64,000 nt of DNA. Source: Ceratodon purpureus (Eukaryota; Streptophyta; Bryopsida; Pseudoditrichales; Ditrichaceae). A program made the translations under genes and the position numbers. Every line of letters starts with the position of its first letter. Within the stretch, counting starts at the first letter, position 1. Shown here piece after piece: positions 19,431 to 61,875 of the stretch. The notes beneath the pieces are model-generated. The model made no database searches and had not been told where the DNA came from. It worked only from the letters and a program-made list of their open reading frames with translations. The DNA is taken from the NCBI GenBank assembly GCA_014871385.1, contig CM026427.1, positions 7,011,909 through 7,075,908 of the forward strand. The letters run 5' to 3'.

Positions 19431-20969
19431 ATGGAGACGACGAGTGCGATGAGAGTGATAGCAGCAGCGCAGACAGCTCCGATCGGCGGGGACGTGCACG
19501 CCAACATAAAGCAGCATGTGGCGATGATGCAGGCAGCGGCCAGGCATGGAGTGCAACTGCTGGTGTTTCCGGAGCTGTCCTTGACGGGGTATGAACCATC
19601 ACTGGCTCCAAAGCTGGCCGTGCATGCGGACGACGACACTACCCTGCTGCTGCTGCAGCCGCTTCGAGAGCAGGCGGCAATGAGTGGCATGACGGCAGTG
19701 GTGGGTTTGCCGCTCTCTCTCCCTGGTCGCCCCGGTTGTGTCTTCATCGGTGCGCTTGTGTTGGAGCCGAATGGTGGCGTTTGTGTGTACACGAAGCAGC
19801 ATCTGGCTCCGAGCGAAGCCTCCGTGTTTGAGGTCGGCATGGGTGGCGCACACGCACAGGTCACTTCCTACTGCACCCTTGCCATTGTAATAAATTCATT
19901 CAACAATAGCCTTGTTTTTCTTCTCAGAAAGCTTCTAGTGTGATTTAATTAGTGAAATTCGCTAAGTAGTCCCCAATTTGGACCTCGGTTGGTCCCCAAT
20001 TTGCCGGTTTTTGCCCAATTTTTTCTTATCCACTAAGTAGAGTAGAGTAGGGATCGTATGCACCAAACTAGGAGTTCTAGATGTAAACTGGGGACCAAAT
20101 CAGTCTTTTAGAGGTTGGATTGGGCACCAAATCAAAGTGGGCACCAAACCTAGAAAACCATCACAATTGGTGCATTTCTGAGTTTAGTCCCAAGTTCAAT
20201 TCTAGTGTAAATAGTTGGTGCCCAGTTTGATGTTTGTCCCCAGTCGGACCAAAACTAGGTATATTAGTCCCGAGTCCAACTAAAACTAGGCATATTGGTC
20301 CCCAGGCCACACTACTTAACGGATTTTTCTTATGTTTGGTACAGTTTAGGACTCCATTTTTTTACTCTTCACACCCCCTTGACTGAAATGAGTTCCTACT
20401 ACCTCTGCCATTTCTAGAATTTCATAGCAACAACCTTCTTTCGTTTCTCAGGATATCTCGTTTTGCATTAGTAGTGGGGTTTAATATGTTTGGCTTTCAA
20501 GGAGTACTCAATCAGTTGGTGCAGTTTATGCCCCCATCTTTGCACGCATGAAATTCTCTATTAGCTAAAATATTATGTGCACTTTGTGGGCTGGAGCGAG
20601 CAGGTGGCTGGTCAGCAAGTGGCAGTGGCAATATGCTATGATACGGCACACGCTAGCCATCCTGCTGCAGCAGCGGATATTGGGGCCTCGATCTACGCCG
20701 CGGGGATTTGGAGCACCCCAGAAGAGGTAGACATGATCAAAGCTCGGTTTGAAGGGCATGCGTTGCGACATCATCTAACAGTGGTGGTGGCCAACTACGG
20801 CGGTCCCACTGCAGGTGGTGCCCCCTCAGGTGGTGGAAGTGCAATCTGGTCTGCACTTGGCACTCTTGTTGTCAAGGCTCCCAAGAGTGGAGTCTCTCTT
20901 GTCGTTGCTACCCACGTTGGTTACCAGACTTGGTCAGGAAGTGTGATTCACGACATTCCTCTCTCTTGA
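19431..20969 (+). CDS. Carbon-nitrogen hydrolase (nitrilase superfamily)
   Basis: Hydrolyses a non-peptide C-N bond (amide, carbamoyl or nitrile). Exon 1 is 19431-19859 and exon 2 is 20604-20969, with CAG/GTCACT donor and GAGCAG/GTG acceptor in phase 0, giving 264 residues. The Glu-Lys-Cys catalytic triad is complete: Glu48 in VFPELSLTGYE, Lys122 in VYTKQHLAPSE and Cys154 in VAICYDTAH. Length suits a free-standing member of the superfamily, and no transit peptide is evident. A second in-frame ATG (19449) just before RVIAAAQ could be the true start. The coding exons are strongly GC-rich (Ala-rich protein) compared with the AT-rich intron and flanks. Its 745-bp intron holds a MITE-like element. 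The substrate cannot be stated. Confidence 0.9.
19956..20325. mobile_element. MITE-like element in the hydrolase intron
   Basis: A 370-bp block within the intron begins with AATTCGCTAAGTAGT and ends with ACTACTTAACGGATT, an imperfect 15-bp terminal inverted repeat (13 of 15 match). Inside, TGGTCCCCA-type words recur many times. No target duplication could be assigned with confidence. Confidence 0.5.
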
Positions 20970-24722: not shown

Positions 24723-27700
24723 CTACTCCTCACAGTCGGAATCTTTGGCAGCTTCAAAAAAACCAGCATCTTCAAGCTCATCTTCGGCAGCATCAAGTAA
24801 ATCAGCCTCCCTCCTGTAGAACTCCTGTACGTCCTTTGCAACAACCTCACACTCATGACGCGCATCATCAGGCCAATTTTTGAAGATCATGATCAAAGAG
24901 TCTAAGTTGTCCAGCCCTAGGCGGCAACGACGAAGGCCTGTAAGCACGCCAGTAATACTGAAGATGCGCTCAGTTTCAATTTGCGATCCTGGAATTGCCA
25001 GAATCTGCCGGGCCAAGAATGCCACAGATGGAAAACGACTTCCATTCTCCTTCCACCAAGTCAAGGGCTTCTCTACATCTGCAGGAACCACAGTCAAGTG
25101 TCAGAAAAGGGACAGTTCAGCTGTAAGGATGCCCTCGCAAGCTTCCTCCGTTGATGCTGCATCACCGAACAGTACGTTGGATGACCTCGGAGCAGGAGCA
25201 GGGGCTGGAAATCCGCCAGGGTTCAAGACTTTGTGTACCTTGATCAGAAATGGAATCAGCACCGCCGTATCACAGCTCTGTACAATCTCCTTCGCCTTCG
25301 CAACGCCGATGTACTCAATGATGCACTCCAAGCCCTTGAAGCGTGGGTCTAACATCAGAGCCAACATGTTGTGAGCCTTGGACTCGTTGAACACATCAGC
25401 AAAGGCAAGAAAGGGTTTCAGAACTCCAATAGCCTGGCGGGCCATCTTCATCTTCAGCATCTCAATCTCGGACTCGAAGTCGCCAACTCGGAGTGCAGGA
25501 ATAGCCAACGCACACTGGTCATGGACATCCTGTAACTCCACCGAGACTCGAAACGCCACAGCAAGGGCATCAGAGAGTAGCCAGTACCCACGAGTCTGGT
25601 TTAAAATGCACTGCTTCACAATGGCATTCAGAGTCCCGGTAACAGTCCTCGCTACTACCCACGTGAGTCCACTGGGAACACGTTCCTGCAATTTAAGAGA
25701 CTGCCGCCTGTAGCAGATGTTGATGGCGTCCACGTGCTCCAACGTTTCTTAGAATAGCACCACCTTCGAAGCAAAACGAGTCTTCACAGGGGTTTTGAGT
25801 TTCCGACTAGGCACTCCAGCCTCAATGCACGCCTTGTTCCATTCACTGCGACCTACGCCAGACTTCTTGGTCCAAGTGATACACGACTGCAGCGATTTCT
25901 GAGCAGTCTTCAAGGAGACCTTCTTCATACCCACACACACCTTCTCCTCGGTGGTTGCGTACTGGCAGACCTTCGACATGATGTGCCAGAAACAAGCTCC
26001 ACTGTAGGGTTTGGTAATGTCGAGAACCGCACGGGACACCGTTGTCTGCAGAGCATGGTGGAGTGTGGCCAAATTGGCACCTTCGTCTTTCACACAAGCG
26101 ATTACCTTATCTCGCAACTGAAACTTATCCAATAGAGGCTTCACGATCTCAGCCAACGCAGCACCAGATGTATCTTGCGCTTTGAAGAGGCCCACTGTAA
26201 CGTGCCGAGGCACCCAACCCTCGTCGATGAAATTAACAACCACCGCAAAGGTATCCCAACCGCACCTGGACATCCACAAATCGAAGGTGATGGTAACTGT
26301 AGCACAACTTGCAATTGCAGGCAACACATACCTGCACATCCCAATTCACAACGTTCAGAATAATCTTGCTTCCCTTAGTCCCAACACATACCACAGAAGT
26401 AGTCATGCATTTCTGAGCACACATCCTAACAGTACGAGGCATGACAAACCAACTCAAGAGAAAACAAAAACGAGCAAACCAGATCACAGAACAAACTCAT
26501 AGGCAACTCGCTTAACTAGATGTGACAGTTCAGGTTCGTTGCAACGACATCAAATTCTAAACATGAAGACACTCGGTCAGCACGAAATCTGTCAACGTTA
26601 TGAAGCCACACACTGATCATTGACAAATATTCATGTGTCTGCATCCAAAACATTTAAAGCCCATCTCAAGAGAATACTCACACCTTGTAGCTCAAATTAC
26701 GTGAATCAAACCAAAGTGATCCTAACATTTCACTGCTAACTGAGATCAATATTTGCACCTGGTTTATTGTCAAGAAAGAACATCTAGAACTAAGGAAAAA
26801 TTTACAAAAAACTGAGCTGTGCAAGATCCAATGATGAGCCTCAGATTCTCTAAAAACTCTTCAGCTAAGTTACATCCAAAGCATACCAAAATCAGATCAC
26901 TTGTTGAACCATCATGAGTTACGATCAGCTTTCCTAGTGAGTGCGGCAAGAAATCTAGATAGAATGGAAGCAGCCTGGGATCAGTACAAATGATGTTTAC
27001 CGATGGGCATGTAAAATTCGAACTGTTTTCAATGCAACAAGCAGTCAAAGAATTACACATTACAAGCGACGAGTGTAGTACTACCATACATGCGAGGGTC
27101 GATGGCCATTGCTGGACCAAAACTATAAATTAATTTACTTGTAGACAACAAGCATAGACTACTCCTGCTCTCCGCAAGTTACTACTGATGCACAGTCTGT
27201 TACTGGGGTTTGTAGTGCAGGATTTTAGGGGCGTGGTTATTGAATTGGGGGCGTGGAGGAGGGGGGGAAGAAAGAGCTGTTTTTTTGAGTGTATGGGCCA
27301 GAGGGTCTTGCCGGCCTCGGAGGGGACGCCCCGGAAGCTGTTGGTGCGAGGAGGTTGAGGGGGGGAGCGGGGGAGGTGGAGGAGCCGCTCATGCGGTGGT
27401 GCGGCAATCATGTCGAAGAACAAAGCCAAGGAGATGTACTGGTGAAAATAATCTTGGAAACATCGAAACTCTGATCAGCCTCGGATCTGTCGACTAGGTG
27501 CTACCTGAAATTTTAAAAAAGAAATTTAAAAAAAAAAAAAAATTAACTAAACCTCGAACAGACCCCAGCACCTTGTCCTCGGGACCCCAACACCTCAATG
27601 TGCTCGGGACCCCAGCACCTTTTCCTCGGGACCCCAGCACCTTGTCCTTGGGACCCCAGCACCTTGTCCTCGGGACCCCAGCACAGCCCCAAACTCAAAC

Positions 27701-28673
27701 AGCGATTTATGACTCTGGCCTTTAAGACTACTTTCCACTCAACAGACTGACATACATCAACCTTTAGTTGCAAGATTAACAACCAATGCTGCTGGCACAA
27801 TCCCTCCAAACCTCTCTCCAATTCTACATGCAAACTCCCATTGAGCACACTCCCTCCCTTCGACAAAACACACTCGTCGCAGTGCATCAACATATAGGCA
27901 ACTCGTAATTTAACAACCCAAATATACCTCTCTATCGTCTTCGCAAACATCGCGGGAATGTGATCATTCACGAGCTGCCTCCGACTTGGGTACACCATAC
28001 GTGGATCCAAGCGCATGACAAGACGGCGGAACCACGAACTCTCCACGGTGCTCAAAGCTTCGTAATCCTTGGCAATAAACAGGACCACATCTTCAATGAA
28101 CCGCAACTGCTGCACATCGTTCTTGTTGTAGGGTTTGTTGTTACCAAAAAATGATGTGATATCAGAAAGGGGCACCACCTTCCTTCTCTTCGACTTCTGT
28201 CTGGAACTCTCTGCCTCTGCTGTCTGCAGCTTATACCTCTCCAAGTCGCTCGGGTGCTCATTCGTCAAATGCTTCTTCAGACTTGTGATTCCATGGTTAG
28301 GGTTATACTGCACGTAGCCCTTTCGTGAACGAGTGCTGCTGCGGGAGTTGCTGGACTCCGCATGTCCCGGGTGGCATACTGTGCACTTCATCGTTTGGGT
28401 CGCCTTCACGTCAACTCCGTTCTCCGAATCTCTTAGGCGAAAGAAAGCCCACACCGCAGAGTTGCGATGATAAGGTACCCAAAATTTTGCATTCGCCATG
28501 AGCCCACCGTAGCGTACTTCCCACGCCGCCTCATCTTCGGCAGCAACAGTCTCCTCAATCGGACGCAGAATGTCGCCGTGTCTCTCCTTTGCAGCTTCGT
28601 CACACTCAAGTTCAACAGAATCTTCCTGCAACAAACTTGTGTCGTCATGACTAGGCTGGTAATCGGACGACAT
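24723..28673 (-). pseudogene. hAT-family transposase, two exons, two in-frame stops
   Basis: Exon 1 is 28673-27928 and encodes the N-terminus with a BED-type zinc finger (CTVCHPGH, then LKKHLTNEH). It joins in phase 2 to 26331-24723 across a 1.6-kb intron (AGAGAG/GTATAT donor, TGTGCAG/G acceptor). Exon 2 carries the RNase H-like core (TFDLWMSRCGWDTFAVVV, CVKDEGANL) and the C-terminal hATC dimerisation domain (GSQIETERIFSITGVLTGLR, near 24950). Two in-frame stops break the roughly 785-codon frame: TAA at 25751-25749 and TGA at 25103-25101. Exon sequences on either side of each stop remain in the same frame, so the copy died recently. The ends of the element were not found. Confidence 0.88.
27562..27683. 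repeat. Short minisatellite (GGGACCCCAGCACCTTGTCCT)n in the hAT intron
   Basis: About five copies of a unit of 21-25 bp built around GGGACCCCAGCACC. The repeat sits within the intron of the hAT transposase gene and produces a Gly-rich open frame on the minus strand that I treat as an artefact. Confidence 0.85.
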
Positions 28674-29550
28674 ATAGTGATGCTTCGGAAAAGAAACCCT
28701 GGACTACAGCAAGTACTCACCCAAACATGCAAGCAAGCAGATCAACTCGCATGGTATTTGCAATTCTCACACAGATAATTGGAAGCTTACATGCCCAATA
28801 CCAAAACAATTAACGTTTAGAACAAAACAACAATTGATTATCGTACCTCACTCACCAAGCCGTCAATAACACCGCGCCTTCAAAGTGCAGCAAGGGCAGC
28901 CCCCACTCCGCCCCTCAACATAACACCCACGATCTCAGCCAATGCCGCTCACAATTACACAGACTCTAACAAACCCTACCTTGCACATCGTACCCTCACA
29001 CAGGGAATCCAAATCTAAATATCAATTAAGCCCCTACAAAATCACCGCAGTCGGGTACACAATGCAGTATCTCAGAGACGCAGTGAGGGGCAACATACAT
29101 AAACCCTACTTTGAAGCCCATGCACGTAACCCTGTATTGGTTCCGTGAGACCCGGTTCATACCCAGTATTGATACCCGGCTAAACCCCCTACGTCAAATG
29201 CTGCAGTGCTAGAGGTGGAGGCAGCGCTTCCTTCTTGCGAATGATCACCTCATAGTCCTTTTGATTCAATTCTAATTACTCCACTATGTCCCTTGTGTCC
29301 ACTAACATGTACCAACATTCTCCAAAAGCATAAGCTTCCAATCCTAGCCCAGGACAGTCTTATCATGCTAGAATTGGCTCATGCAAAGCAAGCGAGATTC
29401 CACTCAAGACTCTTTATTCTGCAGTGATAGTCTAGGCTATTGAATCAGTTGTAATAATCCATTGAACTGTGTTATGCAGCCTCAAAGCTCCACTAAATGC
29501 AAGAAAGACACCTTTATGACGCCGACATCTCTTACAATGAGGTCATCATC
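28674..29550. other. Region 5' of the hAT transposase
   Basis: It probably holds the hAT promoter and 5' end. CCGGGTATC-type words at about 29150-29190 resemble those near 23386, and might be remnants of the hAT termini, but no clean inverted repeat or duplication can be drawn. Confidence 0.35.
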
Positions 29551-32222
29551 TCTTCAGTTGTGGTAGTGGGAACACCTATTCTCGTGCATTTAAGAAATTT
29601 TGCGTATTTCCAGGAGGATGTAGATGTTAATTTTTTAGATGCAGATGTAGACCTCATTTCTTACAGTGTCTCATATCTTGAATTAAAAGAAAGTGAAAAG
29701 TGTCTTGATGAGGAGAGAAGTTTGAAACCAAGTTGTGACCTTCAGATGAGACAAAAGATACATCAGAGGTTGGTGACAACATCTCTTTGGTCAACTAACA
29801 AGCAAAGGAAAAAGTTGGCTGATAAGAGGGCAAAGCTGGAGGCGCAATTGAAGGACAAGGAGGATAAGAAGAAGGAGAGGGAAGAGGAGCTCAGGTTGAA
29901 GAAGGAGGTTTCAACACGGTGTTTTGAAGACTTAGCAAAGCTTGTTTTGAAGGAAGGACCAGAGAAGCTGCTTTTCCATGTTGGTATTTCTCCTTCTCGC
30001 AACAGCATGCCATCAACCATGGCTCCAGTGATTTCTGAAGTACATCTTTCTATTGCTCCCATTCCTTTGCAGATGGTTTTACACCATCCCTGCATCTAAG
30101 TAGAAGATGTACAGTGTGGGGTAGAGGTCATCAATGATAGTCCATCAGGAATTCTGGAGTTATTTACCAATATCACCGGGGGTAACAAGCTACAGATTTG
30201 GTTGAAGATTCACGAGTAGATTATGGATCACTAGAGGAATAAGATTTGTCACTTTAGGGGCGTGTGATTAATACAATCATGGTCGATCTTAATTTATTTG
30301 ATGTGCCAGTGGATTTACCAGTTCGTGGCATTAGCCTTTATGAGGAAATTACTTAATGGAATCGCCACCCAAAAAGACTTGTATCTGGCGTGGAGGGGAA
30401 GTATGAGTCTCATTGGATTGAGCATTATTTTGATTTTGCTTCTCATTTTTTTCAAAATGATGGAGCGGTCATAGTTTTTACTTCAATTCAAAGTTTATTT
30501 CTAACGAGCTCTTGTCTTGGGCGGATTGGGCGGACTTTGGAGAGGAGAGTAGGTGCTTTGCAATCAATGGCCTTCCATTGACTATACCAAATAATCCTTC
30601 GTGTATTCACAAGTGCTTTATGGTGAAGTCCTTTGTCTGGAGAGAGAACGTTCGTGAAGGTGTCCCAACATCTAGTTTAGTTCTCTATGATAAGCGAGAA
30701 TTGGTAGCTCAAGGCATCCAATTGTCATCTGATGGTCATCTCACAAACCTCATTAGTGTGGATTCTCTCCCAGTTGAACCAGGAAATTGGCCCGGGGGAA
30801 GCACTAGATGTTGTGTTTGAGGATCACGTGCGTTCAAAACTTCAAGCCCCTATTACATGGGGGCTATGTATGTAAATTTTTTGGATTATCGTAGGCCTAT
30901 GTTTACCTAAATTTCTAAATTCTGATCATTTCATCTGCCCTACCTTTCATTATAATTTTTTTGTTGGACTAATTATTTGTAGGCTATCTTCATTATAAAT
31001 ACAACAGCAAACCCTATTTTCTAGAGGTGTAGACATAAATTAAACAAAATTGCACAATATTGAGTCTACAGAACAATGTATTGAGTCTATAGAACCCTAA
31101 CGCGGAATGCCGCAGTTCATCCTTAAGATGACATTTATTTCATCCACCATTATTCATTAGCATATTCGGACACTGGATCCCAATAAACCACCCTACTTTA
31201 CTTCCAAAAATATTGAAATCTAATTTTATTTTTTGGCAAGCCTATTGTAGATAAAATATTCTACTAAAATTTAGTGTTATCATCTACCCTTCATTATTTA
31301 TAAAATCCCTAATACCCATTTTGAGATTGCTAATTTACTTCGAAGCCTTTTCTAAATTTTAAGACCAAGGCAATTATAATACCCCTTCATTTGATTGCAC
31401 GTTAACAAAAAAAAAGGGGGAGTGCTCTCCCCGGGGAAATTGGAAGCCATTTAGAGAAGCTCGTGAGAAGACTGCCAATCTTCTCCAGGCTCTTATTGAC
31501 CTTTGCACCGTAGAGAATGATATTGTCATGGACATCACCGCATCAACAGGTATATTGTATATCCTTTTACTTAAAATTAACATGTTTATTTATTTCCAAT
31601 GTTTTATGGTTTACCAATCTTTTATTTAATCTTCAAGTGCATCCATTCGTGCTTGCAAAAGCATCAACTGACATGTCATTGCCTTTGAATATGACTATGT
31701 CTTGTGCAAGGAAGTACTGGTTCCCCTCCTTCCATAGCTTGATAAAGTCTAGTCAGAGCAGGCCTTGTTTGCCTTTTCCAGGAAGTGTCCCTTGGAAGAT
31801 GGCGATGAGACTGAGAAGAAGACAGCTCCTAAGCGCTCTGTAAGTAAGTCTATACTATGAGTTTTCATTGTTTCTAGCAATTTTTTGTTAGATATAAATT
31901 GTTTTCGTATTGCCTCCTATTTTTTTGCTTCAGATGGAGGTCAAAAGCGTTGAAGTTCCAAGGAATTGTCTCAAGGTATCTGAGCAAGATAAGAAGTCAG
32001 GCTATCCGTCCTTTGAAGCTTCCTTACCACGCAAAGAACCTTGCACAGGCAATGGCAGCGGCTCCTTCACCACTATCTTCTCCAAAGCATTGTAGTCCAA
32101 ATCGTGATGCAAAGCAATATTTTGAGTTATTTGCAAAGGTAGATAATATGGTACTATTTGATGAAAGTGACTTTGATCATGGGAACATTGAGGCAACTAG
32201 TGATAACAGTTCTTCTAGTTGA
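29551..32222 (+). pseudogene. Methyltransferase-like coiled-coil gene, copy 1 (decayed, transposon-interrupted)
   Basis: A relative of copy 2 at 59214-61875. From about 29650 it encodes ELKESEKCLDEERSLK, then a Lys/Glu coiled coil (DKRAKLEAQLKDKEDKKKER), VLKEGPEKL and, further on, the methyltransferase-like part. The DPPY position reads LFDVPVD near 30297. A 1-nt deletion near 30480 shifts frame before SWADWADFGEE and CFAINGLPLTIP. At 30791 a 645-bp transposon interrupts the gene; coding resumes at 31444 with PFREAREKTANLLQALIDL and motif I (VMDITASTG), ending at 31549. Two more exons follow at about 31638-31850 and 31934-32222 (RYLSKIRSQ, stop TGA). The block around 30200-30400 also has stops. 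It cannot make a full protein. Confidence 0.8.
30791..31435. mobile_element. Non-autonomous 645-bp transposon related to the 40.2-kb element
   Basis: The insertion is flanked by the 8-bp duplication GAAATTGG at 30783-30790 and 31436-31443. Its ends are inverted: CCCGGGGGAAGCACT on the left and, as reverse complement, CCCGGGGAGAGCACT on the right. The left 150-200 bases match the reverse complement of about 46575-46772 (for example GGATCACGTGCGTTCAA and GGGGGCTATGTATGTAAATT), and the right 100-200 bases match the reverse complement of 40219 onward (GCAATCAAATGAAGGG). It has no coding capacity, so it is an internally deleted relative that needs a transposase from elsewhere. Confidence 0.92.
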
Positions 32223-40210: not shown

Positions 40211-40944
40211 ACAAATTTCCCGGGGGGGGGGGGCACTCCCATTTTCTTTAGCGTTTAGATGCAATCAAATGAAGGGTTATTTTAATTACCTTGGACCTAA
40301 AATTTATAAAAGATTTAGAAAAAAAATAGCTTCTACAGAATAGGAAAAAAAAGGTATAATGAATGAAGGGTATAGAATAATCCAAAAATTTAAGTCTTAT
40401 TTAGATATAATATAGCATTGCTGAAAATAAAAATGGGAAACCAAGGGAGTATTTAACATGATGGATTGTATGGTTGTGGGCAATTTGACCAAAGAATTTT
40501 AATTAAACTCAGATCTTAATCTTAATGGGAGATGGTAATGAGGTAGATTTGCCTGCAAGGATCCAACGCAGTGGACTTCTGGATCCAAGGTGAAGCAATA
40601 AACGACTTCGGATGAATTCTTGGGATGGAAAGAGTGTACGTGACCTAGTTCCAAGTGTGTGCATGTTAGGGTTTAGGGATTTTGTGCGCGTTTTTTGGAA
40701 TGGGTTGTTGCTGGGTGTTGTTTCCGTGATGCTTGCGGCAGTGGTGACGGAAATTTGTAGGCATCTTGTTGGTTGAGCGAGTTGGGGTTCTTGCTGGGTC
40801 TCCGACTAAGCGAAACGGTTTAGGGAAATTGGGGACTCTGCAGCAGTGATCAGGCGAAGGGAGAAACGATGCAGGCTCATTCTTTTTTTCTGTTTCGCTT
40901 CTAGGTTAGGGTTCTGATTGGAGCAGTGGTTCATCGTCGTTTCA

Positions 40945-43900
40945 GATTGGAGGTAGTGCCGGGAGCCCTCAGAATAGGATCACGGTGTGGACGTTGGAGG
41001 GGGAAGATGCGGAGGCCGAGTATTTTGGTAAAGTCGACACTGCCGAGGCTTCGACCTTGGAGAGTCTGCGCATCAAGCTGGAGATCAATGACATTCTTGA
41101 GTGGCCATTCAAATTTTGGGACCCTTAAGTCCGCAGGCGCGTGAGGAAGAAGTTGGAGCGGCTCACTACAATTTCTGTGGAGGTGTACGTGATTCGGGTC
41201 GAAGAAGGAGAGCCCGAATGTCGCAAGAAACGCAGGCTGGAAGAAGGGTCCGCTACCATTACCGGGGATAATGTTGTGGAAGCTGTCGAGGTTGCTGCAG
41301 ATGGCTACTTCGAAGCCGAAGACCCCACGCTCGTGGCTGCTGGTTCGTCGAGGGTGAGCGGTACAGGAGATGGGAGCGAGGTGGATGAGATTCCCCTGAA
41401 GTCGTTGTTGTTGCCCACGGAGGTGATGGACCGCTACCTCGAGCGAGCGAAGAAGATGCGGACTAAGTTGAAGAAGGTGGCGATGTCCGACCACGAATGG
41501 TGGCTGAAGACCTTCGACCTCAATGGACAAGGAGTTGTGAAGTTATGGTGCAAAGAATGCAAGAAAGACTGTGGCGGTGGTAGCAGGGATCACACGAAGG
41601 CTCATATCGACAATCTGTTCAATAACTTTCGAAGATCCCACATAATCAGCGCAGGGCATGTGCGGAATTTCTGTGCGGGAAAAGGGGTGGACTTCGACAA
41701 TCATCCGCTGAGTGCTGGAAAGAATGGGAGGTCTGCCATTGTGACACCAGACGATCATAAGAAGTTGATTGCTGAAGGTGTGGAAATTGTGCACTCTGTG
41801 AATGCGACTCTTCCACCTAGGCACAAGCATTTCACCATCCTCGGAAATCTGGAAGCTGATGACACTAGGTGCTACTGGTTTAGGGTTAAGTGCCACTACT
41901 ACCGAGATCTCTTGGTGTTGTGCCCGATGAAGATGAACCTGGAAGTGAACTTGCTGAATCATATTGGGGCGCCAAAGCACAAGAAGGCTGTGCAAGACGC
42001 TGAGAAGGTCATCACCCAGCCAGCAAGATCGGGGCGGCCAGGGCGACCTACTTCCTCGGGTACCACGAGTTGCCACTCCAGCCAAGGTGACCTCCATACA
42101 TGGTTGATGCGGGGTACATCCAGTCAACAAGAAGGTATGTCTCGAAGCATGTGTGAGAAAATGGGAGCTCGTATGATGTGCTACGGGTTTAGAGGTCCAG
42201 CAGTGGAATACGGTGGAAATTCTTACTTGGTATCTGCCTTGCTGAATGATCCTCACTCTGGTAGACAGTGGTACCCAGAGCCACATCTTTCTGCTATTGT
42301 CGATATGGGGGATGGTGTCGTTCATGTTAGTGGCTCGTTTCGGCATAGAGAATGCGCTCGTTTATCTCTTACTCTGAATCCGTTCTTAAATCTGACATGC
42401 CCTCTCTGTGCTCAGATTCCTCGTCTTCACGATTTCAGAATGAGGATTCGAAGAGAGGACCAGGCAGTGGTCAAGAGGGGCCATAGAAGTACTGCTGGTG
42501 GAATCCGCATAGGGTATTTGTCTGTACACGAACTGTCAAAATTTACAAGAGACTTAAATAGAAAATTCAGATTAGAGAAACTTCATTACTGGCATACTAG
42601 AGTGAGGATTGTACAATTAAAGGTTAGGAGGCCTACTTTGCGTGAGAGTGCAAAAAATGCCACGGCTGATGGAAATGTCATTAAGTTCTGCAATGATATT
42701 ATTTGTGCCCACAGGACAAGTGCATTCGGGGGCAAACCTGGACTGTGGGACTTCATGAAAGATGTAGCAGCGAATCTGAATAGGCAGGGGAATGGGAATC
42801 GTTATAGCCAGAATACAAAGTGTTTTGCTCGAGCTATGCGCATCTATGGGGGACGCCGTCTCTGTGATCTGTTTGCTCTGAATTATGCAGGGCCAAGTTT
42901 TGACACAATTCGGAGAGAGTGTAGGAAAGGGGTCCAGTTTGTAGCTGGAGAGCACGCGGATATTTTTAAGTCAATAGCTCTGATTTATGTGGATGCCAAG
43001 GCAGCTCTTGGCATTACAGGCCCTGTTCGAGTTATACTGGCCGAGATCACGCAAGACCTCCATGTCCCCGTCCTCGCCACGCACTGGCTTTGTTGACGAT
43101 GCAAACGCAAAAGACTCCTTGTCTGAAAGCTCCGCAGACCACGGTTTCTTGAACCACTGCTTGCTCTTCGAGGGAGCCTGAGGACTCGGTGCCATGTTGA
43201 GACTATTGATTAGTCTCTGTGCCAGTTTCAGACCCTCCTTCAAGGCGTCTACCACGGCCTCGTTAGTTGCCACCCCGCTATAGTCTCCGAGATCAGGTGC
43301 AATTTCTCCCTCATCTAACCCATGCAGCTTACCCCATATATTATTCATTTTATTGTGCGCCCTCCCGAACTTTATGCCATTTCCACCATATTCTATCTGG
43401 GACAGATGATTAACTGTGTTTGCAGAGGACAGCAGCTCATGGAAATCATATGCTCTCTCCATGCCCACCATGCCCCCTACTTTACTGAAGAAAATTTCAC
43501 AAGCATCCAAACCAGTTAAATGGAACGGAACACTTAGGTGAGGGTAATTATCTCTGAAATGACATAGAAGTAGAACAATGAAATGACATGACAACTGTAT
43601 GTCCAGGAAACATTGCTGACTAACGAAATTCACGTTTGCATTCACAGGTTCAGTGTTTCCCATTACCGCATGATTACCATGCTTCATCCACAATTTCCAA
43701 ATTCTGAAGAAAAAAAAGACCTTCGCAGCCTTCACAACTCGGGCACGTAAGTCATGCCTAGGAGAGAGGAATATGTCTATGTAATCTGCACATATCTCCA
43801 AATACACCTCAATACCGAGTGTGCGTTCACGGTGCACATCTTTAGTTAGTCTTAAATTTCTTAAACAATCTCTTACCTTCTGCAAACAGAGGCGCTGCGC

Positions 43901-44761
43901 ACTAGCCCAGTTCTGGCAAGGACGGGGACATGGAGGTCCGACGCCCTAGCTGATCAGGCCCGTGCTGAGGCTGGTGAGTCTGATCTCCCCCAAGGTGAGC
44001 CAGAACTCCTCGACGATGGATCACCGCTTCTTCATGTGCTGGAGAGTGAGGCTCGTGATGCCATTTCAGACATGTTAAGTGCACATGAGAATCAGGTAGC
44101 CGGTACCTTGGATAGGCAGAAAGTTGAGCCGTTTGTCTAGTTTGATGGGAATAAAAATTTTAAGTCTACACTAGTTGGGCAATTGAATGGAAACCCTTTT
44201 TTATCAAAAGACCGCCTAACCCGTGTGAAGAATTCATTGTATTTTAATAATGCTGATGTTTATCTTAGTGCTGCTCAGTCGTCGAGTACTTGTTTTGTGG
44301 GCATTGGTTCGGATGTCGGGATTTTTTTTGTACAGCGTTCAACTCTATCAAGACCGTCGACAGTAGCAGCCGCAAAGAAGAGGGGTAGGTCACGAGCTTC
44401 CAACCGTGGTGCTGCTACCTCTGTTTTGCAGGGCGTAGACGAAGGTACTTGGTGGGTAGGCCGGATACAAAAGATGAGAAGGCATTTAGGCGGTACCTCA
44501 TGGGGATGTTTGAAGCATCCAGTGGACCTGGCAAACCGCGACCCCTCGGCCGGTAAAAATCCGAACCCTGTTTGCAACATTCAAGTGATGTTGCACTACT
44601 TCACGCGTGCACCAGGACAGCATAAATTTAGGTATGATCTAACCGATTCTAAGTGGATAGACCTTGACTCCATAATCACGAATGTTACTCTATCGTTCAA
44701 TTCTGCCACTCAAATATATACTCTAGATGCTGGTGACGCAGCACGCTCAGAACCTGAATGA
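40945..44761 (+). pseudogene. Transposase-like gene of the 6.55-kb element, inverted and broken
   Basis: Coding similarity starts just after the acceptor-like TTTCAG near 40945 (ITVWTLEGEDAEAEYFGKVD). An in-frame TAA at 41126-41128 follows, then an open frame to about 43054. This has a Cys/His cluster (LWCKECKKD, KAHIDNLFNNFRRSHI), a second one (NLLNHIGAPKHKK), an AT-hook-like SGRPGRP, a CPLC motif near 42400 and ends with GPVRVILAE. From 43055 to 43938 the coding sense switches to the minus strand: NWASAQRL, ERTLGIEVYLEICADYIDIF, then HLTGLDACEIFFSKVGG and MERAYDFHELL. Plus-strand coding resumes at 43940 (DQARAEAGESDLPQ), has a TAG at 44138-44140, and ends with WWVGRIQKMRRHLGG and WIDLDSIITNVTLSF. 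D-x2-E-x2-F in DACEIFF recalls the last catalytic region of P-type transposases, but this is inference. Confidence 0.7.
43055..43938. repeat. Inverted segment bounded by 25-bp inverted repeats
   Basis: GACCTCCATGTCCCCGTCCT plus CGCCA at 43055-43079 is repeated in inverse orientation at 43914-43938 with one mismatch. Both copies encode, in their coding sense, the same peptide end (EDGDMEV). Between them the coding sense is reversed relative to both flanks. The simplest reading is an internal inversion that copied its breakpoint sequence; roughly the coding stretch expected between VILAE and NWASAQRL is missing. Confidence 0.75.
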
Positions 44762-45318
44762 CTATGTGTCCAATAATCCAGTTTAATCCTGAATGAGCAT
44801 GCTGATCTCCAGTAAATCTCCCCTTCTATTTTTGCGCTCTCCTCTTGGTGCTCGATTTTTCTGCTGCAGATTGCGGTGGCTGATGTTGACAGCAGCCTGT
44901 CAAATCAGTGACATATGATTAGCTCAAAGAATCCCTTATTGTGTTCAAGGGCGTACGAGATCATCATGAACATGCACGGTGGTGGAGGTATGATCACCCT
45001 AATCCTTTCACTCTAATCTACAATTTCTAGTGATTAAAAATGACGGCTGATGCGACTTACCTCTAATCACCATCATCTCCCTTTGTGCAGGCTGCCCAAG
45101 CTGTCAGTTTTCCATTCCCCTGACAGGCCCGTCACCATCTTCTTCCCCAACCTCCTTCCTACAAATCCCCTCCCCCCAGCCCAAGGTACGCACCCTCACT
45201 CTTGTGTTCGTATCGAGTTTTCCGTTCCGCTTCCTTCTTGCACACAGCCGCTCTTCCTCCTCGTCCTCGCAACCCCCATCTTTCTACTCATCTTCTTGTT
45301 TGTAGTCGCTCGGTTAGG

Positions 45319-45753
45319 ATGTCAGACCTCGTGTGGGCTTTGGTGTCTGCGCAGCGCCACAAGGGCTGCTTCGATCAGGTCGCCTCCCACGTTCTGATCG
45401 AGCATGTCCTGGACTTTGTGTGTGCTCCTGCAGATCCATGGACCTGCATCGACCGCCTGCACATTGACAGGAAGGACTTGTTGGGACTCATTCCGAAGTT
45501 GGCGTGCGTGTCCAAGGAGTGGAACGCGGCGGTTCGCTCCCGAGTTGAATATGCCGCTCTTCGTGCTGCTCCTTCCCTTCGTAGGAATGCACCTGCCGGC
45601 TCAAATTGGCTTCGCCAACGTCGCTCTTACCCTGTGGCGGAGTTTGACAGGGTCTGCGCCATCCTCTCGAAGTCATGGAGCTTCTCCAAGCCGTTGGCGA
45701 TGAGACTCCGAACAGCACCCTTGGGGGACCTCTCAAATACGGAGCTGGTTTAG
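45319..45753 (+). pseudogene. F-box-like reading frame carried by the transposon, with an in-frame TAG
   Basis: Starting at the ATG at 45319 the frame encodes 144 residues. LIEHVLDFV, then LACVSKEWNAAVRSR, look like the two halves of an F-box-type helix-turn structure (F-boxes link substrates to SCF ubiquitin ligases). The frame ends with TAG at 45751-45753, but the same frame stays open for 38 more codons with protein-like content (MAEVSVTPGDGQELLETVW) up to TGA at 45868-45870. I read the TAG as a recent nonsense mutation. The frame lies wholly inside the 6.55-kb element on the same strand as its main gene, so it is either a second element gene or captured host DNA. The F-box call is moderate. 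Confidence 0.5.
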
Positions 45754-46780
45754 CTCCTCACATTCCTCAGGAGCGGGTGGATGGCGGAGGTCTCCGTCAC
45801 CCCGGGAGACGGGCAGGAGCTACTGGAGACCGTGTGGGTGACTCCTACACAGCGCATGAGGCACCTGTGAAGGTATGATTCTTCCTCCGTTTTCTCCCTT
45901 TCTTACTCAAGTAGCAAATTGGGGTCTCATTGTTCGCATGGTCTGATTCCATCTCCCTTCCTGCATGTTTACATTCCCTCCCGCGATGTGTTTGTCCCCA
46001 TCCTGTTTTCTCATGTGATGCTGATTTTCTTGACACAGGTTCATTGGGGGATTGGCCTGGAGGATCGCACAGAGGGTAGATGATTTGTTCTGTGCAGTTT
46101 TTTGATGTGTTTATGAACACAATTTTTTTTTCCATGGATCCAGCTAGGTTTGCTTTTCGAAGTTCGCCACATGTTGTCGTTACTGAACCATCTTGGCAGT
46201 TGCCAACTTTGTTTTGAACCTTAAGTTCGGAGTAATTCATGAGGTGCTTGGTTTGTGTGTTGTGTTGTAACTGGTGCCGAATCCCATTGAATTACTTTGT
46301 ATGCAGTTGCGCTTGTCATTGTGGACCTGAACCCTGCTTGTTTTATTTTTTGATCTCCTCTTCTTTGGCATGTTTACAACTTTGCAGCAGAACCGAAAGC
46401 CTACGAATTCCAACTTCTCTGTTGTTTGTTGAACTGATGAGTTTTGCATCGTCTTCAATTCACACCCTTGCAGTTTCAACAATGGGCTGTAATGCTAAAT
46501 TCGACGCATGGAATCTCTCACCTCCAATTAACTTTGTACAATTCTGTAGGTTTGAAGAGTTTATAAATAATGTAGCCTAGATTTAATTGGAAATTTGGAC
46601 TGCATATTTGTTTAAAATGAAAGATAGGGTCATTTTAATTGCTTCACTTTAGAAATTTAGGTAAATGAAGCCCTGCACATATTGCCAGAATTTACATACA
46701 TAGCCCCCCTCTAATGGGGCCTTGAACGCACGTGATCCATAACCACCATGGATAGTGCCCCCCCCCCCCGAGACAAATTT

Positions 46781-51479: not shown

Positions 51480-53828
51480 TAATTAGTTTCTGGCTTTTGA
51501 AAGATATTCAAACATGTAGTTTGTCTATTTTTGGAACTATGGTTGTAAAAACCTCAAAGAAATGTTTTTGTTCTATCCATAGTCTAACTTGGTGAGATTT
51601 GTCAAGAATCAAATTTATTTATAAATTCAATTTTACCATATGTAATAAGTTAATAACCTCATATTAAGAATTTGACACTTTTAAAGGTTTGATAAGTAAA
51701 GTTGTATATAAGGATTAATTTCTATTGTATTTAATGAGATTCTATGTTTTTGTTTGATAGATTCAAAGTTTTTCTTTGATACATTAATATTTTCCAATAC
51801 ATATTTTTTGGATCTAATATGTAATGTTTGTACTTTAATTGAGTTATAAATTAAACTTCATTTAACTTACATAGGTACATTAATAGGATTTCAACTGTAA
51901 TGTACCACATAACAAACTTGAAGATATTTTTACAGTAACATATTGAAATTTGATATTTTTGATCCATGATCCATAGTGATTTTCAGTCTTATCAACTTCA
52001 ACAACAATAAGTTTATGACAAAGTAATATGGTTGAGATTTCATTGCTATTTAGACTTATGATTGTTCAAAGAAAGATAATGTTTTTGAATTGAAAGTAAA
52101 CATGGGCCTTTAAATGCCAACCAAAAGTTTAAACATCCATATTTCTTAATCAACTTCAAAAGATTGTTTACATGCATATGTTTTGTATTTATACACAAAA
52201 TTCTGTTTTTGAACCTCTAAAATCCTAGTATTGCAAGAAAACAAAGAATCTTTAAACGGTTGTAAAGATTTTTCACCTCATGCTCTAGGTTAAAACGAAA
52301 ATGACAAAAACAAATAATCCCCATTATATAACGGGCTTTCATTTCTTGAATTAATAGAATCCATAAAGTTCAAAGTACAAGTTTGGTTCCACCAATTGTA
52401 ATCATGGCTAGATTTAGATCTTTTATAACTTTAATTTATTTTTCAAATTTAGGTAGTAAGTACCATTATTATTTTTTAATTTTTATTCATATGACAACAT
52501 AATAGCAGTGACAGGTTATATATTTGCATCCACTATTTATAAAGTTTGCAATAGCAAGAACAACAAACGAAATAAATGATGAAAATTATGCTATCCATCA
52601 TACTATATCTGGTTTTCTACATAATTGCAAATTTGAAAACAATCAACTACTACCCAAGCTACATTTATATGAGTTGTCAAAACTCGCAAAAATGTTGAAA
52701 AACACCAAAAACAATAATAATAACCACTAGCATTATATAATGGTCCTAACCACCACTCTTGTATCTAGTTGTGTACTACATCAATCAATGCTTTTACTGG
52801 ACCTCAAAGTATAATGTACATCTAGACCTTGTCTGGGCCATATAAATTAATACAACAGTCAATTACAGTGGCAAACATTATTGCTAAAGAAAACTAGGCT
52901 AACTCTTACCTTCCCTAGTAGACATGACAAATAAACATCTTGCTAAGTAGAAATAATCTTAATTTTACGGTAAGTGAATATTAAAAGTAGCTGAATTACC
53001 AGCTTATCATTGGTCTTTAAATTACATGTGCATCAATAATAGAAGAATATACACCTATGGTTGATTTGTCTTTTTAACAAAGAAGATCTTCAAAAACTTG
53101 TGTTATTTATGCAAAAATTTCATCCAGTAATTATGGATGATTGACTAATTTTGAAAAAATACTTCAATAAGAAATCTCGAATTAGATTTTGCCCACCACC
53201 TTATACATGCAAAAAATCTCTATGGTGGCTGTGGTGGCAATCGTGGCAAGTAGTGGCTGTCATGGCAGTAGTAGCTGTCGTGGCAATAGTGGCACTCGTA
53301 CTGCACAGACAACTTATGCTACAAGCAACCTTCACGTACCTACTAGACATTATATTACATGTGGGCCAGCTCGAGATACAAAGTTACCAGAAACTTCACA
53401 TCTACAAGTTACCGCACTTTAACTGTTAGTTTTCCTAAGTAAATTTGACCAGCTTGACCAAGTTGACCAGGTAAAGGTTGATGCCAAGATGTACACCTAC
53501 AAAACATATTGCACAACAATACCTACTAATCTTCACACTAAGAAGATCTGTATTCCCAAAAATGGTCATTTTACTTCATCCTACTTCCAAAACTCATGCT
53601 CTCACCAACACCAAGTCACTACCCTCCCATTACATTGGCTCTCCACAGCACACCTCCAGCAGCCTCAACTAGTGCCTCAACTCCTCACTCTCCACCATCA
53701 CTCTTGCAATTTCTCCACCGTCGCCAATCTAGTGTCTTGAAGGTTGTTGCAGTGTAGGTTGTTGCAGCGTCTCCTCACAACACCTAGTGTGACTTGGATA
53801 GTGCTGCTAAAGATCTTTAGTAGCAACG
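51480..53828. other. Intergenic stretch and BTB promoter
   Basis: No gene is supported. A TGGC/GTGG-rich imperfect repeat (GTGGCTGTGGTGGCAATCGT) lies at 53224-53300. The last few hundred bases upstream of 53829 are CT-rich and should hold the BTB gene's promoter and leader. Confidence 0.45.
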
Positions 53829-55449
53829 ATGAGCTCGAGAGATGAGAGTAAGATCAATTGCTACGGCAATCGATCCACCAGCGATGTAGTGATCTCTTTG
53901 GTTAGAAGTGCTGCCCCCGTTCTAGTTGACGAGAAACCTGCAGCAGGAGAGATGGTTCTGCCGAGTCTGCCTTCTGCTCATGACAAGGGCAAAGGTCCTG
54001 TAGAAGAAGAGCCTACGGCAGACTGCTTGACGACGAAGCGCAAGCGAGACGCAGAGGAGGAGAATAAGGAGGACTGCTCGAAGGAGATTCCGGATACCAC
54101 CTTGGCGGAGTTCCATGTTCACAGAAAGCGGCTGTGCCGGAGCAGCCGGTACTTCGAGGCGTGCTTGAGCGAGAGGTGGTCGGGTGGGGAGACCAGTGAC
54201 GGAGTGCAATCTCCGAGGCGCCTATCTCTTGAAGCTCACGTGCCGGTAAAGTATTACAAAGAATGCATCCACTACATGTATGTTCCGTGCTTGGGGGATG
54301 TTGACGTTCGTCAGTGTTTGAAGCTTGTGCGAGCGGCGTTGCAGATAGATTACCAGGCGCTTGTCCAAGAGTGTAGGGACTACTTGGCCGGCATAGAGTG
54401 GACGAGCGAGGACGAGTGGAGGATACGGAGGTGTGCATCGACCTCGCACTTCCCCATCAGTTGTGCAGCGGACGGCCTCTCCTCTCGGCTAGGGTCCAAT
54501 TTCTCTGCAAGCATGCGGAAAAATGTGCTTGACCATTATGAGAGTGTGTTATCCGCATACTTCGGGAAAGATGTTCCAGTGAGCTTGTTTACTACCACCT
54601 TTCAACGGGTCGTGAGAGGCCGGTGCCATACTATTTCAGAGGTTTTTTTCGGATTTCTGAATAACAAAATAAAGAAGGGCATCTCGAACGCAGTGGGAAC
54701 TGCAAAGCTGAGATCGGAGTGTGCTGATGAAGCTACCGAGGACATGCTTAGCACAGAACGCTACATGCTTCAACTCCTTTTGCTTAACAAGAGGGCCAGA
54801 GAGGTGGTAGAGTATATAGTAGAGGAGTCTGATTTGCACGAGGCCTTGAAAACGAAGCAGTTTACACCTTGGGATATGGATTGGGCGGGGATGATTGATG
54901 GCATAATGAGCGACCTCATTGAAGGGCGTTTGGTGCTCGGAGCATCGACGCGATATAAACTGATCACAAATTATACGTGGTTACTCGTTGTGAGATTCGA
55001 ACAATATCTAAGGGCGAGAGAAACTGTAGAGATCTTTTGCAAGTTTATCATGACCTTCCCGCGAGAGGAGCAATTGAAGTTGATGAATCTCGAGGACCTA
55101 AGGCGGAATGTGGCTTTTTACCATGAAGCGAACGAAATGTGGATCAAGGGCTTCGAATACAAGATTTGTTCGCTCGAGGAGGAGACAAAATATTGTGTAG
55201 ATTTCCCGGAGGAGAGCCAATCCATACCATCTGTGTCAGGTAAGGGGCAGATTTCCAGTCGTCTGGTTTTGTTCAATTGTCGATTCTTTGTGGTGGGGCT
55301 TAATCATTGCTTGTTCTGCAGACGCTTCCGGAGATTCCAGACTTTCTGATGATGGAAGTTTTCATTCGCTCGAATTCAACTCCACAGATGGAGCACATCC
55401 TGATGCTGGATGGCCTGAGGTAGAGGTCACCAGTAGCCATCTCGGTTGA
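53829..55449 (+). CDS. BTB/POZ domain protein
   Basis: A BTB protein, probably a substrate adaptor for CUL3 ubiquitin ligases. Exon 1 is 53829-55239 and exon 2 is 55322-55449, with GTCAG/GTAAGG donor and CTGCAG acceptor in phase 1, giving 512 residues. The BTB fold starts with TSDVVISLV (residues 17-25). It is then split by an acidic/basic low-complexity insert (about 27-90) before FHVHRKRLCRSSRYFEACLS, LEAHVPVKYYKECIHYMY and QCLKLVRAALQIDYQALVQE. The C-terminal 300 residues are alpha-helical in appearance and match the general layout of the land-plant BTB group without NPH3 or MATH domains. GC content is above that of the flanks. The exon 2 tail is acidic and Ser-rich. Confidence 0.88.
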
Positions 55450-59213: not shown

Positions 59214-61875
59214 TCAAGAAGACATCTCGTCATCGCTACAAGTACCAATCCAACCATGATAAGAATCGCTATCACTAGATAATACCACTCTGGCAACTTC
59301 TGCAGCTATGTCAAGATAAATCTTAGCATCACGACAAATGCTATCTCTATCAGATGAAATAGATGGAGAAGGAGCAGCTAAATAAGCTTGAGCTTGCATC
59401 TCTGTATAATGTGGAAGCTCTAAAGGTCTAACTGGACTCCTTATCTTGCTAAGATGGCGCGAGATAATAGAGCCACCAATGTCATTCTTCAACGCTTTCT
59501 TCCGACTGCACATGACAATTTTACACTCTAATAAATATTGAACTAAACTTTTTTTTAAAAAAATAAACAAATGACAAATGAATGTAAAGACTTACTTACA
59601 AGAACGCTTGGAGGCAGTCTTCCTCTCAGGCTCATCGTCTGACTCAACCGAACGCTTCTTCTTCGGTGAAGGCACAGGAATTGGAGTAGGCTCAACCTCC
59701 TCCGTGCTAGGAAGAAGAGGGAGCAACACCTGCTTGTACAAGGTGGTGTCAGACTCAAAGCCTATGACATGATGCCGGAGACTCTTGGAAGCTCGAATGG
59801 AAGCACCTGCACAGAAATTAGCACACCAAAATCTAAGTAAAAATTATAAAATGAAATACAAAATTCTTTTAATAAAAAAAAAAAACAAATTAATACCTGT
59901 AGAAGCTGTGAGATCCATGACAATGTCATTCTCAACCGTGCACAAATCAATTAGAGCCTGCAAGAGGTTAGAAGTCTTCTCCCGTGCTCCTCTGAATGGC
60001 TCCCCAGTCTCTGAATTAATTGTCAGAGAATCTGCAGTAATCAAATTAGTGCAATGTCCATCAGAGGAGAGCTTGATGCCTAGGGCACCAAGCTCAGCCC
60101 TATCATGAAACTGAAACATAGACCTTGGAACCTCCTCCTCGACATTCTCCATCTTGATGAAGCACTTGACCATAAAAGTCTTGTGCTGGCGTGGATAACG
60201 GTCTGGAATAGTCAATGGCAGGCCATTGATTGCAAACCACTTGGCCTCCTCCTGAAAGTTAGCCCACTCTGCCCAGGAAATAAGCTCATTCGAAATGAAC
60301 TTTGAATCAGGGTAAAAAACAATCAAAGCTCCATCATCCTGCAGAAACTACATAGCAAACTCAAAATGGGCCTTAATCCATGAAGACTCCATCTTTTTCC
60401 CTGCTGAAATCTTGGGGTGCTTGTTCCAGGAGGGAATCTCACCATCTTGCCCTAAACCTGGAACTCGTAAATCCTCTGGAACATCAAAAATGATGAGGTC
60501 CACAGCAGCCTTAGCCTCCTCACCCCCAAAATTCCTAGCCTTGCTACCGAGATGGTCCTGGATCCAATCCTTGATCTTTCTATAAATCTCAGGCACATCC
60601 CCCTCCGATAAAGAAGTAAACAAATCCAAAATGCCCATAGGGCAATCATTGATGATCTCAACACTAGTGTCTACCTCATCCAACTGCGAGCATGGAATCG
60701 TGTAGATAGTCTGAGAAGGCATGGGGGTAGAAAAATGAGGCACCTGAGGAGCTACAGGAACTATGGCAGCCTGCATGCTACTGCCTGAAGGAGAAATGCC
60801 AACATGAGACATCAACTTCTCTGGCCCTTCCTTCAAAACTAACTTGGCGAATTCCTTGTTCCTTGCTGCCACTTCCTTCTTGAGCTTAGCTTCCTGCTCC
60901 TTCTCCTTCTTCTTGTCTTCCTTCTCCTTCATCTTTGCCTCTGTCTTTGCCTTCTTCTCAGCCACCTTCTTCTTCTGTCTCTCAAAAAGAGCAACATCAT
61001 CACCAACCTGCGAGGTATCCTCCTCCAAACCCATCATGTTCTCATCCCCAAGCTGCTTCATTAAATTCTCACAACTTGCCTTAAGACCTCTCTCTTCCCC
61101 GGGGCATTAATCATTCTCCTTGAGCTCAAGGTACCAAGGACACTGCAGGAGATGAGGAGCTCCAAAATGCCTCCTCTGATAATCTGTAAAAATGCACTCA
61201 CTGCTAGAGACATCCACTCACTTCTTAAACCTCTGAGGAATATCCTTCTTGTCAATGGCACCCTTAACAACCAACTCCCTCCAGAAATACCTCAAGATAG
61301 CCCGCTTCATAGCATTCTCAGCACCAGCCTGGTGGAAAAATGGCTCTTTCTTGGTAAAGGTTCCAGCCTTAGGGAAAAAAGGCTTAAAGGCCCTGCCCCA
61401 CAAAGTGATGGAATGAGCCTCAATCCATGAGCCAATATCATCTACAGGATTAGGTAAATCCTCTGTCCTCAAAACTATGATATCCTCCTCTACAATCTTG
61501 GCATAACGAATGACTGCCTCCTCCTCTAGCTGCAAATACAATCAATTAAAAAACACATAAGAATACGTGACCAATTTTATGATGAAGCGTTATGTTAAAC
61601 TGCAATAAGCAACAACTTTGAAATGAAATGCAATGGCTTAAGAATTAGAAATTTACCCCAGCCCAGAATGCAGCCTGATCAACCCAAGGCCGGAGAACTA
61701 GATCAGAAGCTGGATGTGGAGGAAAATTGTACTCCTGCCTACTCTCCTTGCTCATGTTCCACCACCTCAACCACCTCTCTTTCTACTTGGGAGAAACCTT
61801 GGCACTTGAAAAAAGTTGCAACTTTTCAGGGGTCATCTCAGCCTTGTTATAAAATATGTTAAAGTGCCGGATGAT
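59214..61875 (-). pseudogene. Methyltransferase-like coiled-coil gene, copy 2 (fuller, three in-frame stops)
   Basis: Five exons fit on the minus strand: 61875-61657, 61529-61222, 61183-59897, 59806-59596 and 59505-59214, with GT-AG borders and matching phases (about 770 codons). The N-terminal part has RPWVDQAAFWAG and WIEAHSITLWGRAFKPFFPK. A Lys/Glu coiled coil (near 60890-60990) is followed by VLKEGPEKLMSHVGISPSGS. The last part has beta-class amino-methyltransferase order: DLIIFDVPED where DPPY is expected, FLQDDGALIVFYPDSKF, then motif I (IVMDLTASTG) and motif II-like SIRASKSLRHHVIGFESD. The usual catalytic [DNS]PP[YFW] is DVP here. A nuclear-localisation-like KKKR and an acidic tail follow. 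In-frame stops are TAG at 61785, TAA at 61109 and TAG at 60350. The same residues are open in copy 1 at the second and third positions, so these are mutations, not introns. Confidence 0.82.

Follow-up and report, generated by a model that had tools for sequence, protein, structure and literature searches.

A degraded DNA transposon with G-tract ends in Ceratodon purpureus and its probable distant relationship to P elements

The element at the locus

We analysed a 64,000-bp stretch of the genome of the bryopsid Ceratodon purpureus, hereafter the window (C7:7011909-7075908 of an assembly of 362,488,568 bp in 151 contigs), which holds at 40219-46772 a 6,554-bp DNA transposon with inverted ends built around a run of G, whose broken transposase gene probably derives from a lineage distantly allied to the P element and THAP9. 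Direct reading of the letters places the element between two perfect copies of the 8-bp target-site duplication ACAAATTT, the left at 40211-40218 and the right at 46773-46780. The left terminus (40219-40237, plus strand) has the form CCC-G12-CACT, with the same Gn-CACT form in copies fetched from the genome, and the right terminus (46754-46772, minus strand) has the form CTC-G12-CACT, written on the forward strand as AGTG-C12-GAG; an inverted-repeat search recovered the two as a 20-nt pair at 95%. This is the arrangement of duplication and CYC-G12-CACT ends that had been described in a first-pass annotation of the same DNA, and the G12 ends are not assembly gaps, as the window contains no N. 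In the whole window, these two termini are the only runs of eight or more G or C. When five elements from four subfamilies are aligned at their 5' and 3' ends, a subterminal motif near CAC[GC]TGCG also emerges, which is recognisable at the 3' ends of all four subfamilies and looser at the 5' ends. In the window copy, its candidates are ATCACGTGCGTTC at the 3' end (46724-46736, minus strand) and GATGCAATC at the 5' end (40258-40266, plus strand), the latter a degenerate counterpart of the 3' CACGTGCGTTC, and both might serve as transposase-binding sites.

The element is entire only at its termini, and its interior is broken. Open reading frames (ORFs) and tblastn comparisons with two database relatives of its transposase, P0001 and P0029 (P-numbers denote relatives from the protein database and L-numbers fetched genome loci), place the N-terminal half, with its zinc clusters and AT-hook-like stretch, at 40994-43045 on the plus strand, where it runs up to the glutamate that precedes the first catalytic aspartate; P0029 residues 1-70 match 42836-43045 of this part. 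It is followed by an inverted segment of 870 bp (43046-43915, minus strand), in which P0029 residues 293-582, including the D-x2-E-x-F-F motif of the catalytic glutamate, align with 43915-43046. The C-terminal part, from P0029 residue 586 onward, then resumes on the plus strand at 43937-44761, with residues 586-853 matching 43937-44740. For the intervening P0029 residues 71-292, which carry both catalytic aspartates and the D(2)H motif, tblastn found no match in the window copy, and the ORF limits reveal in-frame stops at 41126-41128 and 44138-44140. Given these stops, the loss of the segment with the first two catalytic aspartates, and the inversion of the glutamate segment, the window copy is, to judge by its letters, dead and cannot make the enzyme. 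The description of the element as complete accordingly applies to its termini and fails for its interior, where the two aspartates are deleted and the D-x2-E part lies inverted on the minus strand. A 25-nt inverted repeat, with arms at 43055-43079 (plus strand) and 43914-43938 (minus strand), stands at the boundary of the rearrangement. The 870-bp inversion, the neighbouring loss and this boundary repeat are common to three copies of the element, and the rearrangement looks like a template-switch or microhomology event.

Downstream of the transposase remnants, a second gene at 45319-45753 (plus strand) codes for an F-box-like protein, with the F-box model of Pfam matched below its cut-off both here (E=0.16) and in the copy at L017 (E=0.13). 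Counterparts with 37-40% identity lie downstream of the transposase in three elements of another subfamily (L010, L012 and L013), although the L010 protein itself matched no Pfam family. Short ORFs occupy the same place in L015 and L016, as compared by eye only, and the examined part of L009, L011, L014 and L018 has no ORF of at least 60 aa on the second-gene strand. An involvement of this gene in protein turnover can only be guessed at.

A transposon family in the genome

When the whole assembly was scanned with the pattern GGGGGGGGCACT, 105 places were recovered; the reversed pattern occurs 16 times. Pair analysis, covering 100 of the 105 places, yielded the pair of the window and 14 more convergent pairs with a spacing below 8 kb, and these 14 were all fetched; this set leaves out two end pairs on contig C6 that are 18 and 23 kb apart. 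Every one of the 14 pairs displays a perfect 8-bp duplication outside the G-run ends, 12 as detected by script and two by eye (L021, GGACTTTG; L022, ATAATTAT), with the G run broken by an A in both of the latter. At L009, L011 and L016 the match between the flanks exceeds 8 bp, and the register of the duplication was set by the CYC end. Most ends conform to CYC-Gn-CACT, the exceptions being one changed base in a run of L014, CTT at one end each of L015 and L017, and TCC instead of CYC at one end of L021. As L013 duplicates L012, and L017 and L019 duplicate the window copy, the 14 pairs represent 11 insertions distinct from that of the window. Beyond the pairs, the listed part of the scan contains 70 single ends, of which 20 were fetched; five of these have an unambiguous partner end accompanied by an 8-bp duplication (L028, ATTTGGTT; L033, TCCAATTT; L036, GTTTTGGT; L037, AGTTTGCA; L039, GTCCCAAT). 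The partner end of L038 is ambiguous and the apparent one of L027 was judged not credible, while the other fetched single ends yielded no partner, several of them resembling chance G runs.

A search of the host genome with the P0029 protein recovered at least 52 copies of the transposase (58 rows), a lower bound with 52 of 264 candidates scored. Many of these are partial or broken; eight, located on several contigs, have a match free of stops and an open frame that extends over 1,493-1,527 aa. Their distribution is uneven, with 33 of the 52 copies on contig C6 (110.5 Mb, 30.5% of the genome; binomial 1e-6), which we take to be possibly a sex chromosome. Inverted termini and duplications of constant length, the hallmarks of cut-and-paste transposition, thus occur together at several independent loci. 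The prediction of a DNA transposon with other copies in the genome is borne out by the duplications and Gn-CACT ends of the 14 further pairs: this is a genuine transposon family, with other copies, including uninterrupted ones, elsewhere in the genome.

Two of the duplicates deserve separate mention. L017 on C6 and L019 on contig C11 have the same arrangement and duplication as the window copy, with 98.6% and 97.9% identity to it inside the ends, respectively, and their flanks equal those of the window over the 68-89 bp fetched. In light of the duplication, near flanks and damage common to all three, they are most likely copies of one insertion that was carried along with its neighbouring DNA or within a larger repeat. 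The same three features lead us to reject separate jumps for the window copy, L017 and L019.

The transposase and its relatives

Database searches yielded 13 relatives with the window ORF; the catalytic part of P0001 as query retrieved 43, among them P0001, and an alignment-based search reached 447 proteins at E<=1, with 120 listed. Among those listed, the named sources are the liverworts Riccia sorocarpa, Riccia fluitans and Calypogeia fissa, the fern Adiantum nelumboides, the brittle star Amphiura filiformis and one EukProt record; most matches are unnamed. In a FastTree phylogeny of 41 sequences, rooted at its midpoint, the named land-plant sequences form one clade, in which P0029 stands beside the liverworts with the fern outside those.

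An alignment of 42 proteins reveals at least 90% conservation of D71, D190, D237, H240 and D429, and E432 is invariant. The unbroken frame of L010 has D698, D817, D864/H867 and E1059 in the catalytic positions. Hence, the conserved D, D and E of a DDE enzyme are present in the 42 relatives and in L010, with the first two aspartates missing from the window copy. The layout is D, D, D(2)H and E, with a long insertion between the second aspartate and the glutamate and a long C-terminal domain; we take the catalytic domain to be RNase-H-like. Further upstream, L010 displays three C-x2-C groups, and H-x5-H follows two of these. An unbroken copy codes for a single transposase some 1,490 aa long, with N-terminal zinc clusters followed by the catalytic domain. 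With respect to the motifs named by the first-pass annotation, the zinc clusters are evident in L010 and the D-x2-E motif holds the likely catalytic glutamate; of the AT-hook-like motif there is a sub-threshold Pfam match, in the relative P0016 only.

Pfam scans of the window ORFs recovered no transposase family, and in the Pfam tables that show bit scores no family rose above its cut-off for the window ORFs, the family members or their consensus. NCBIfam has no model for the four proteins tried. No transposase emerged from the PDB when its sequences were searched with P0001 or with the profiles A2 and A3: A2 obtained only chance-level matches (E>=0.16), and P0001 and A3 none at all. In IMG/VR, 27 stretches fit the peptide patterns and none is a relative. 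No paper on the family was recognised in literature word searches, which a differently worded report would escape. The transposase lineage is new to Pfam, in keeping with its earlier description as a poorly described one.

The G tract of the ends

Across the 15 pairs (30 ends), the G run varies from 8 to 83, being exactly 8 at nine ends and 8 to 10 at 15; as these ends were selected by G8, the lower limit is artificial. A sample independent of the run was obtained by anchoring on the inner 16-mer beside CACT of one subfamily, which found 30 ends (none in the reversed control), 27 of them judgeable, and 18 of these 27 3' ends have at least eight pure G beside CACT. Shorter and degenerate tracts are also seen. 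The partner ends found by their duplications at L028, L033, L036 and L039 show 6-7 G and a single altered base ahead of CACT, that of L037 has G5 with three changed bases, and a short element in the window has tracts of G4 and G5. All four subfamilies, which differ in sequence inside CACT, share the Gn-CACT ends. Conversely, the near-duplicates L012 and L013, 99.9% identical (7,659 of 7,667) and with the same duplication, have runs of 42 and 36 as against 70 and 45. Given the 18 of 27 anchored ends with G8 or more on the one hand and the length difference between L012 and L013 on the other, the tract is a genuine feature of the terminus, with a length that is not fixed and drifts like that of G runs elsewhere in the genome. 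Homopolymer assembly error is a possible source of the length variation.

Two notions about the tract can be set aside. Twelve G is not a set length, as runs of 8-83 rule it out; the exactly twelve G that had been noted are accidental, with lengths that differ between duplicates and long runs common in the genome. Nor are long G runs a mark of this element alone, as 2,451 runs of at least 20 G were counted over both strands of the genome, where about 3e-6 would be expected from base composition. This excess reflects either a general expansion of G tracts or an assembly effect.

Affinities of the transposase and rival readings

When compared by hhalign with the Drosophila P transposase, the 42-member profile scored 31.2, against a mean of 19.0 for shuffles, and two collinear alignments place P D230 on D71, D303 on D190 and E531 on E432. 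With a profile of P and THAP9 the score rises to 41.2, against shuffles with a mean of 18.4 and a maximum of 30.5 in 100, whereas Hermes gave 17.4, the shuffle level. The stretch T..(F/Y)L...(F/I)DIF.S around D444 of P is also matched in the family. In the Pfam table for the 42 members, which gives E-values and no bits, PF21787, which models the first RNase-H portion of P transposases, was matched by three (best E 2.6e-4) and is the sole family matched by more than one; PF21788 was matched by one (E<=1). Of 19 members scanned singly, P0122 alone matches PF21787, at 16.3 bits against a cut-off of 24.6, over a span that includes the EDET motif. The sequences of P and THAP9 themselves pass the P domain models and serve as positive controls. 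PMC8230255 describes the triad of P transposase along with its D(2)H motif and essential D444, and PMC7776569 the 8-bp target-site duplication, the 17-nt staggered cleavage and the GTP-binding residues of the P element. Of these traits, the family has the 8-bp duplication and the triad with a D(2)H placed by eye, together with a profile likeness to P that is beyond chance and modest.

Hence, with a probability of about 0.72, we read the window element as a degraded copy of a family with 8-bp duplications and CYC-Gn-CACT ends that is distantly related to the P element and THAP9, the copy most likely having been duplicated along with its surroundings; our best reading of the aligned proteins is a lineage related to P that may constitute a separate superfamily. 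The superfamily left unassigned in the first-pass annotation thereby narrows by profile comparison to a remote relative of P, with the proviso that the P domain models are not passed. A number of results weigh against this reading. The hhalign probability is low (4.6% for P on its own and 36.7% once THAP9 is added), the alignment to P plus THAP9 misplaces the second aspartate, one of 200 shuffles scored as high as the P-only comparison, and the controls for these comparisons consist of shuffles and a single transposase, Hermes of the hAT superfamily, taken alone. None of the P domain models (PF21787, PF21788, PF21789 and PF12017) was passed in the tables with bits, and the family consensus proteins have no P-element Pfam match. 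Of the eight GTP-binding residues of P, compared by eye, clear counterparts exist only for D528 and for D444 (as D or E), with none for N447, K400 and V401. To these may be added the dead state of the window copy itself and, regarding the ends, the 9 of 27 anchored ends without G8 and the abundance of long G runs in the genome.

Some of the same results would fit a transposase that forms its own superfamily and stands at least as far from P as from hAT or KDZ, the likeness stemming from a common plan of a catalytic domain with an insertion. The failure of any P-specific Pfam cut-off to be passed and of the consensus proteins to find a match speak for it, as do the hhalign probability, weak in absolute terms, and the lack of a THAP domain: no THAP model was matched in the Pfam tables, the near-full-length P0016, P0021, P0054, P0055 and P0058 included, though several of the 42 members are without their N-terminus. 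Yet the whole triad is collinear with that of P, along with the stretch around D444; Hermes does not rise above shuffles, and PF21787 stands alone among Pfam families in matching several members, so that we regard such independence as rather unlikely. Membership in a familiar superfamily with 8-bp duplications is far less probable still. KDZ elements make duplications of this length. They are also typical of hAT elements according to PMC12730594, but the 42-member Pfam table has no hAT, KDZ or MULE family at E<=1 and the Hermes comparison is noise; the absence of hATC noted in the first-pass annotation holds for the Pfam tables as well. A more substantial contender, which we consider quite conceivable while leaning somewhat the other way, is that the family is real and has already been catalogued, for instance in Repbase as P, Novosib or under another name. 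Its relatives are indeed numerous and one of them, P0076, bears the source label 'Transposase'; against this, Pfam lacks a model, as does NCBIfam for the proteins tried, and our word searches led to no recognised paper.

A further doubt concerns the ends, where the G runs may have no meaning and be homopolymer expansions or assembly artefacts that happen to lie there. The genome-wide excess of G runs far above base-composition expectation, the unequal lengths in duplicates and the anchored ends without G8 all favour it; nevertheless, the tract has a fixed place beside CACT, at both ends, in four subfamilies, and at two-thirds of the ends found independently of the run (18/27), and we therefore hold it to be a real but lesser possibility. 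A short conserved seed whose length drifts is the likely explanation of the G runs. Under the distant relationship to P that we favour, and by analogy with P itself, the most likely mechanism is that the N-terminal zinc clusters would bind the subterminal sites about 20-30 bp inside CACT, whereupon the transposase would pair the ends, cut at the CYC terminus and join the ends to target strands 8 bp apart. The short G seed would be kept at the terminus, with its length drifting afterwards. If the stagger were as long as the 17 nt of P, we hypothesise that the tract would be re-synthesised at each insertion, with a chance of slippage. Taken to its furthest extent, this would mean an unrecognised superfamily or deep sister of P with members in seedless land plants and in one or more animals and with ends that require the G tract, perhaps by way of a re-synthesised single-stranded overhang that changes the length of the end at each jump; we offer this as a speculation with the odds clearly against it.

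Other features of the window

The window also contains a short non-autonomous relative of 645 bp (30791-31435, minus strand), with ends of the form CCC-G4-AGAG-CACT and CCC-G5-AAG-CACT and the 8-bp duplication GAAATTGG at 30783-30790 and 31436-31443. It lies in the opposite orientation to the 6,554-bp element and is about 73% alike to it over some 165 bp at each end, which substantiates the subterminal likeness to a second insertion previously noticed. An empty site is provided by a paralogous gene without the short element (59893-60290, minus strand), to which the joined flanks align through the insertion point with 289 of 402 columns identical (72%). The paralogous gene pair spans 29497-31600 and 59847-61106 in opposite orientations, with the first member interrupted by the short element. 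Elsewhere in the genome, L020-L022 have only 275-276 bp between their G runs and keep nothing but the ends of an L011-type element.

Several further ORFs in the window were noted by eye: those at 25104-28703 (minus strand) resemble a hAT-type transposase, and single ORFs resemble a cytochrome P450 (15583-17547, minus strand), a carbon-nitrogen hydrolase (19419-20966, plus strand) and a BTB-domain protein (53811-55346, plus strand).

Significance and comparison with known systems

Pfam misses this transposase family despite its unbroken copies, and annotations will mostly label its members as hypothetical or uncharacterized proteins. The family may bridge the gap from P/THAP9 to other DDE enzymes and offers a natural test of the role of a homopolymer G tract at a transposon end, a question open to experiment through the uninterrupted frames that it has on several contigs.

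Among known systems, P and THAP9 offer the most points of likeness, namely the 8-bp duplication, the D-D-E triad with D(2)H, the long insertion between the second aspartate and the glutamate, an acidic residue (Asp, in the family D or E) in DIF.S, candidate internal binding sites away from the extreme end, and a collinear profile alignment above shuffles. Unlike them, the family has zinc clusters with no THAP domain detected, and its protein, about 1,490 aa in L010 as against 751, is about twice as long, with a large extra C-terminal domain. It likewise differs in not passing the Pfam cut-offs of P, in not keeping most of the GTP-contact residues as compared by eye, and in its G-tract ends and, in some subfamilies, an F-box-like second gene. 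KDZ (Kyakuja/Dileera/Zisupton) elements are like it in their 8-bp duplications, whereas no KDZ family appears in the 42-member Pfam table, a comparison made by Pfam profile only. The family is like hAT, as represented by Hermes, in making 8-bp duplications and in having a DDE enzyme into which a further domain is inserted (an insertion domain also named in PMC7776569), but differs in the lack of any hATC match in the Pfam tables and of profile similarity to Hermes. Lastly, L020-L022 and the 645-bp element of the window resemble miniature inverted-repeat transposable elements in being short, the latter having only its ends in common with the long element, whereas L020-L022 differ from such elements in carrying end G runs of 8 to 83.

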